A DNA stretch of 39,727 nt. Source: Bacteroidaceae bacterium. GTDB taxonomy: Bacteria > Bacteroidota > Bacteroidia > Bacteroidales > Bacteroidaceae. Both the position numbers and the translations under genes were made by a program. Position 1 is the stretch's first letter. Each line of letters opens with the position of its first letter. The notes below the pieces were generated by a model. It did not search any database and was not told where the DNA came from. It saw nothing but the letters and a program-made list of their open reading frames with translations. Of the stretch, positions 21,467 to 21,844 are shown piece by piece. The DNA is taken from NCBI GenBank assembly GCA_017560945.1, contig JAFZDY010000012.1, positions 1 to 39,727 on the forward strand, given 5' to 3'.

Positions 21467-21572
21467 TGTACACTACACCGTCAACCAGTACATGAAAGAA
21501 CAAACATATTGCTATAATAGCGAACTGGATTGTAGTCGAAAAAACATCGCCAAAACAGCCCTTTAAACTAAG

Positions 21573-21660
21573 CCTACCAAACCTATATACTTTGTCTATC
21601 AAACCTCTGTAGTTTGGTAATCAAAGTTCGGTAGTTTGGTTTACCTATATTTTAGGCTTG
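21573..21660. repeat. Array A: 22-bp units with CAAAC/GTTTG dyads
   Basis: Three consecutive 22-base units (21573, 21595, 21617) and a weaker fourth (21639) each end in TTTG or CTTG. The first three hold CAAAC or CAAAG, then 7 bases, then GTTTG or CTTTG, centred at 21586, 21608 and 21630. The bases outside the dyads vary, so the period and the symmetry are what is kept, not the full sequence. This looks like a set of protein-binding sites two helical turns apart, or a decayed tandem repeat. Confidence 0.6.
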
Positions 21661-21665
21661 AAAAA

Positions 21666-21687
21666 TCAGAATACTCTCAATAAGTAC
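21666..21687. repeat. 22-base repeat shared with the right window edge
   Basis: These 22 bases start tcagaatactc and end aataagtac. They recur at 39701-39722 in the same orientation with one substitution (C at 21677 versus T). At the right edge the element directly abuts the insertion-sequence-like copy. Here it lies between the two 22-bp arrays, so it may mark a further remnant of the same mobile family. Confidence 0.6.
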
Positions 21688-21704
21688 AGCAATCACGCTT
21701 AAGG

Positions 21705-21792
21705 GATACTGCAGTACTCCTTATGTAGTACTGTAGTACCATATGGGGAGTACTGCAGTACCATAAGGTTGGTACTCGAGTATTCCTTAAAC
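21705..21792. repeat. Array B: four 22-bp-spaced palindromes
   Basis: Four palindromes with cores tactgcagta, tactgtagta, tactgcagta and tactcgagta are centred at 21711.5, 21733.5, 21755.5 and 21777.5, so their spacing is exactly 22 bases. Between cores the linkers share the pattern cc-ttat or ccata-gg. One core has a single mismatch that breaks perfect symmetry. A lone ggagtact at 21803-21810 falls out of register. Equal spacing near two helical turns would put all four sites on one face of the DNA. Confidence 0.7.
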
Positions 21793-21844
21793 GAAATTTT
21801 TAGGAGTACTAATTTTGACTGATTATCAGCGAGTTCCTATAAAT

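Follow-up and report, generated by a model that had tools for sequence, protein, structure and literature searches.

The sites of parS/ParB, Noc, SlmA and MatP are short palindromes that are scattered over the chromosome and kept by selection; they are mostly single, and their binders are known. The arrays described here differ from these in that their sites are grouped at 22 bp, and to our knowledge the parS, Noc, SlmA and MatP site sequences do not match the arms of the arrays (AGTA and TACT) as a whole. LexA sites were rejected as well, since neither of the Bacteroidetes LexA motifs drawn from the portion of PMC8565304 available to us (GGA-N5-TCC and CTAA-N5-TTAG) matches the arms. REP/BIME elements bear a likeness to the arrays, being dispersed extragenic palindromic units that sometimes form composite arrays (PMC3733652, PMC6006769, both in part), and REP units are described mainly between convergent and tandem genes (PMC3733652, same portion). 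Our arrays are unlike them in the rigid 22-bp length of their units, which come in groups of about four, and in numbering tens, not hundreds, of units. BrickBuilt of Porphyromonas gingivalis is a minisatellite inside a MITE, with 19 elements, a 22-23 bp unit, a very variable repeat number and terminal inverted repeats that resemble those of ISPg1/ISPg9 (PMC4596501, in part). The likeness here lies in dispersed tandem units of 22-23 bp in a Bacteroidales genome, with positions largely kept between strains, but the BrickBuilt unit is 23 nt with another consensus, and the available part of its description gives no invariant short dyad, so that the arrays are set apart by the printed consensus and description (PMC4596501). 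No description of the arrays was found in the literature searched, which was largely that outside subscription journals.

The window, by which we mean the whole stretch of 39,727 nt that was analysed, carries four TACTNNAGTA dyads in a non-coding gap, with starts exactly 22 bp apart (21707-21782). Dyads 1 and 3 (21707-21716 and 21751-21760) both read TACTGCAGTA, dyad 2 (21729-21738) reads TACTGTAGTA and dyad 4 (21773-21782) reads TACTCGAGTA; all four were read directly and found by pattern match. Direct reading thus bears out the regular row of dyads in the initial annotation, and its description of them as four palindromes holds for the symmetric four-base arms; the second core is an imperfect palindrome because its central GT is not self-complementary. 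Read the other way, the same letters form three strict AGTA-N12-TACT units (21713-21776), with spacers at 21717-21728, 21739-21750 and 21761-21772. The array extends beyond the four dyads on both sides: a degenerate dyad, TACAGCAATC (21685-21694), lies in register 22 bp to the left of dyad 1, and an outlying inverted arm, AGGAGTACT (21802-21810), pairs with AGTATTCCT at 21779-21787 across a longer spacer. Both lie inside a block that is kept among 15 aligned copies of the source genome (21665-21841, plus strand, as oriented in the alignment). A longer stretch, 21560-21841 on the plus strand (-184 to +97 from the array centre), is common to the copy on contig C20, with 92.9% identity over 282 bp; ACCAAAC/GTTTGGT motifs are repeated to the left of the array at 21560-21660, and also occur in the C20 copy. 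In the whole window, TACTNNAGTA occurs five times where 0.40 are expected, a number reached in none of 100 shuffles, and the fifth copy, at 999, is solitary. The array lies between two divergent genes, a ThuA-family gene that starts 229 bp away and an adjoining Fer4 gene.

A search of the whole source genome with the pattern of two dyads 22 bp apart matched 45 places, compared with none for the reversed-pattern control, and these group into 16 arrays, the window array among them. A sequence model built from 15 copies recovers the same 16 places, 15 of them at 119 bits or more and one, cut by a contig end, at 77 bits; of the model's 39 rows, the rest stem from the opposite strand, from overlapping matches or from weak places (e.g., C45:29374 with 33 bits and C16:28698 with 22 bits). 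The alignment of the 15 copies spans about 177 bp, and some copies have longer common flanks. Flanks are common between copies at 26 of 29 sides. The ends of the element are fuzzy and differ between subfamilies. The spacer CTACATAAGAAG is found in the first strict unit of five source-genome arrays, while its exact reverse complement occupies the same place in three others, which suggests that single units were inverted or underwent inverted conversion. Two contigs of this genome (C29 and C53) start inside the array element, which therefore probably breaks assemblies. Four of its arrays (L013, L016, L019 and L021) lie behind paralogous MacB/FtsX permease genes, often in tandem pairs.

Across genomes, the canonical array comprises about four AGTA-N12-TACT units with 2 bp between units, and in other genomes its edges are often CAGTAC at the start and GTACTG at the end. 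The distance between neighbours is 22 bp in 226 of 243 distances up to 100 bp, a count biased by the 22-bp patterns that were used to fetch the loci. Arrays have four units in 63 of 120 cases, three in 23, five in 19 and other numbers in 15, where end units were accepted at 5 of 8 arm letters (random pass rate 2.5%) and three end-cut arrays were left out. Exactly four units are present in 18 of the 19 arrays of the isolate set, and five to seven in 14 arrays of the source genome. The array itself is what the genomes have in common: ten of the 16 genome groups have no flank likeness between arrays. A flank motif, TTTTYCTGATT, had been suspected by eye but did not emerge clearly from the k-mers, among which array remnants and a GTTGAC repeat prevailed. 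A second interspersed motif (approximately GTTAACG-N5-10-GTTGACTA) occurs near arrays in several Prevotella-type genomes (L011, L028, L030, L111, L124, L139 and L143).

Lone sites are not above chance. The 1.04 Mb of fetched loci contain six lone TACTNNAGTA sites, compared with about ten when the window expectation is scaled, and in B. mediterraneensis P2644T AGTAC-N10-GTACT falls outside arrays at three of 29 places, with four for the reversed control.

The initial annotation proposed that selection acts on the dyad and not on the full sequence, and two sets of comparisons support this. Among 14 copies of the source genome (copy L020 is left out), the mean pairwise difference is 0.013 for the arms, compared with 0.21-0.22 for the flanks, 0.388 for the inner spacers, 0.133 for the spacer edges and 0.475 for the central pair. 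Compared between three isolates (B. mediterraneensis P2644T, strain An793 and P. plebeius DSM 17135), orthologous arrays have no changes at 192 arm positions and 77 changes at 676 flank positions (p 3e-9), while spacers (27/288; p 0.43 against the flanks) and central pairs (6/36) drift. These numbers are from six of eight pairs, with L239 serving in two; the pairs L276/L222 and L276/L230, in which unit numbers differ, and one duplicated L239 unit are left out. Detection of an array required two or more units with exact arms, which biases the arm counts. The end units, which were detected with tolerance, show what happens when arms do change: among 178 changed pairs in 108 end units, one is compensated, 125 are broken, 47 become G-U and five have both letters changed and unpaired. 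Arm changes are thus almost never compensated, and it is the letters that are kept, not a stem. The annotation had also read the core changes (tgca, tgta, tcga) as paired, which does not generalize: outside the source genome the central dinucleotide is self-complementary in 68 of 226 dyads (30%, compared with about 41% expected from composition), and in the source genome in 15 of 29 (36% expected). The four-base arms are therefore symmetric, and the middle two bases largely free.

Arrays are found mostly behind genes. The gaps that hold 96 arrays are convergent in 43 cases, tandem in 45 and divergent in eight, compared with 32, 118 and 59 among 209 other gaps of more than 100 bp at the same loci, so that convergent gaps are enriched (p 1e-7) and divergent gaps depleted (p 5e-5). 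Genes for this comparison were called by a greedy longest-ORF method, and the count omits nine duplicates, nine arrays that overlap a called ORF and 21 that have no called gene to one side. In the isolates the distance to the nearest gene end is 3-159 bp (median 38, 23 arrays), and in the source genome it is 97-452 bp (median 268, 13 arrays). The window copy is atypical, a divergent exception among arrays that mostly lie at gene ends. Functions of the neighbours are mixed, and include MacB/FtsX permeases, glycoside hydrolases, ThuA, LuxS and threonine synthase, among others. In several genera, the array directly follows the end of a gene for DUF6078 (PF19555), which has conserved cysteines and an RRRG motif; this holds for seven of 104 arrays plus two more (L012, L027, L082, L100, L101, L114, L149, L222 and L230). 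As a partner of the array DUF6078 was rejected, the gene being present also in eight of nine array-free congeners; its AlphaFold model is poor (mean pLDDT 54.5). On the 4.03-Mb contig C1 of genome G041, there are just eight arrays (at 0.93, 1.16, 1.25, 1.42, 2.61, 2.75, 3.89 and 3.92 Mb), and the terminus, placed near 2.0-2.2 Mb by sampled GC skew, falls within the largest stretch free of these eight.

Carriers occur among the relatives of Bacteroides and Prevotella in gut and rumen. Of 399 family genomes, 41 have the two-unit form, patchily spread over 11 of 30 genera, and the reversed-pattern control matched two genomes of the same sample. Nine of the 41 carriers have a single place only, and at least one of these (G1084) resembles another repeat; at the other extreme are 48, 32, 28 and 25 two-unit places in the four richest genomes. 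In the genus of the source, six of 15 relatives are carriers, compared with none of 26 other relatives. Outside the family, a stricter three-unit pattern matched none of 387 genomes of the order and none of 390 in the phylum sample. Named carriers among the matches listed include Phocaeicola plebeius, Bacteroides mediterraneensis, Mediterranea massiliensis and Leyella stercorea, together with many Prevotella MAGs and with MAGs labelled Parabacteroides and Porphyromonadaceae. Presence on phages or plasmids was not seen: the three-dyad pattern matched no viral contigs, and the 177-bp block had no match to plasmids or phages at E 1e-5.

The reading that we prefer, and hold about evenly poised, is that the array serves as a multi-site docking element at gene ends for a putative dyad-binding, probably dimeric, DNA-binding protein. 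Frozen dyads, a narrow range of unit numbers, regular spacing, no excess of lone sites and a place at gene ends fit such an array, judged on the sequences compared here. The arms AGTA and TACT would be the invariant recognition parts. They could be presented in either of two geometries: as TACT-NN-AGTA dyads 22 bp apart (about two helical turns), and so on one face of the DNA, or as about four successive AGTA-N12-TACT units. That unit numbers keep to a narrow range suggests a complex with a set size rather than a string of independent sites. Rather than serving as a promoter operator, such a complex may act at gene ends or on the chromosome, as a transcription boundary or roadblock or as a supercoil or nucleoid site. 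Of the cooperative one-face binding proposed in the initial annotation, the protein-binding array fits the arm constraint and the 22-bp spacing, whereas the promoter operator finds no support; a partition or nucleoid-protein site, which the annotation also named, is conceivable. Several points weigh against the docking reading, namely the divergent position of the window copy, the bias of exact-arm detection, the shared flanks, the Fer4 loci of congeners that lack an array, the P2644T arrays with no An793 counterpart, the patchy distribution and the favourable RNA folding energies, the last of which are described below.

A rather doubtful alternative, though one that has to be weighed at length, is that the arrays are a REP/BIME- or MITE-like non-autonomous repeat, copied by a transposase (HUH/RAYT or other) and without host function, for which a place at gene ends would reflect tolerance. 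In the source genome the element multiplied with its flanks (about 180-280 bp), and there it is also REP- or MITE-like. The patchy distribution and the convergent or tandem placement agree with this as well, the latter being that given for REPs in the accessible portion of PMC3733652. The Fer4 gene is found without an array within the fetched 1.5 kb at 12 loci from 11 congeners (some cut by contig ends), and these loci together with the shared flanks suggest spread in the source lineage. We dropped the interpretation of these loci as empty sites of the window copy, since in relatives the Fer4 gene does not have the ThuA gene beside it; with ThuA elsewhere, either the region was rearranged or the window copy is specific to its lineage. 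Positional orthology among the isolates counts against spread: all six An793 arrays are at loci with an array in one or both of the other isolates, and their arms are frozen, although three of the eight P2644T arrays (L221, L223 and L227) have no counterpart among the six of An793. The ten genome groups whose arrays have no flank in common also argue against a copied element.

Other features of REP systems are largely absent. Of 252 array ends, the tags GTAG and CGTC lie within 20 bp at ten and eight, respectively, and CTAC at 29, compared with about 17 expected per 4-mer from simple composition. Compensated stems are limited to the single changed arm pair noted above; folding energy alone favours structure. 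Copy numbers of more than 100 are reached in no genome of the family sample, whose maximum is the 48 two-unit places. The evidence on a cognate RAYT is divided. Three array-bearing congeners encode a RAYT-like protein (L241:1773-2804, L242:1364-2395 and L243:2097-3134) that is 343-345 aa in length and has a long C-terminal part; its NCBIfam score of 42-45 bits falls short of the cut-off of 80, and it has relatives in 104 of the 399 family genomes. These are enriched in genomes with arrays (19/41 compared with 85/358; Fisher p 0.004, not corrected for kinship), as are close homologues in two genera (7/12 compared with 2/22, p 0.004). The protein is missing from all four of the richest genomes, however, and is thus not required; on this ground we rejected RAYT/REP mobilisation as a requirement. 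RAYT types other than this protein were covered in 41 relatives by a search for Y1_Tnp (PF01797), which was not found in the source genome (81.8% complete).

It is unlikely that the arrays are instead a transcribed RNA element behind genes, such as a terminator, a series of small hairpins or a stabiliser of mRNA 3' ends. The main favourable result is that RNA folding energy is below that of dinucleotide shuffles (mean z -3.3 in the source genome, -6.9 in isolates and -4.2 elsewhere) and of spacer-only shuffles (-3.1, -5.3 and -2.4, respectively), and the position behind genes would also suit such an element. Pairing between spacers is largely wanting: in the source genome only S1:S3, one of ten pairs tested, pairs better in cis than in trans (p 0.024), and in the 19 isolate arrays cis pairing is no better than trans. 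The cis excess across 41 mixed-species arrays is what species-specific spacers would give. Within units of the source genome, only positions 2 and 11 pair more often in cis (0.64 compared with 0.38 in trans), and the RNAalifold consensus has two-sided change at two of 32 pairs. Besides the uncompensated arm changes, Rfam speaks against an RNA: at the window array there was nothing above the gathering score, with sub-threshold matches to microRNA precursors, and at six other loci tRNAs were the only matches, the arrays being unmatched.

A promoter operator, from which a neighbouring gene would be repressed or activated via cooperative sites, is very improbable. The window copy, flanked by divergent genes, is placed as such an operator would be, but the place of most arrays behind genes and their avoidance of divergent gaps speak against it, as do the mixed functions of the neighbours and the chance level of lone sites; neither the promoter sites nor the common single sites of a transcription-factor regulon are seen. 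The simpler alternative of the initial annotation, a decayed ordinary tandem repeat (minisatellite), is hardly credible, since decay should strike arms and spacers alike and the arms stay while spacers and central pair drift, although one orthologous array does have an extra tandem-duplicated unit and locus L127 is a perfect, minisatellite-like tandem repeat, the single exception among the loci read to the absence of the homogeneous repeat without symmetry that, in relatives, would have refuted the annotation.

If the arrays are merely a repeat, their frozen arms and narrow unit number are still unexplained by ordinary REP/MITE models. Tentatively, we consider that they could belong to a chromosome-wide system previously undescribed in the literature searched, in which a putative dimeric protein on about four 22-bp units would build a fixed-size complex that sets limits to transcription or organises the chromosome, and which would be gained or lost whole between species. 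Cultured carriers such as Phocaeicola plebeius DSM 17135 offer sites for direct tests, and if it is true that a protein binds the arrays, gut Bacteroidales would own a chromosome-wide site system that as yet has no name.
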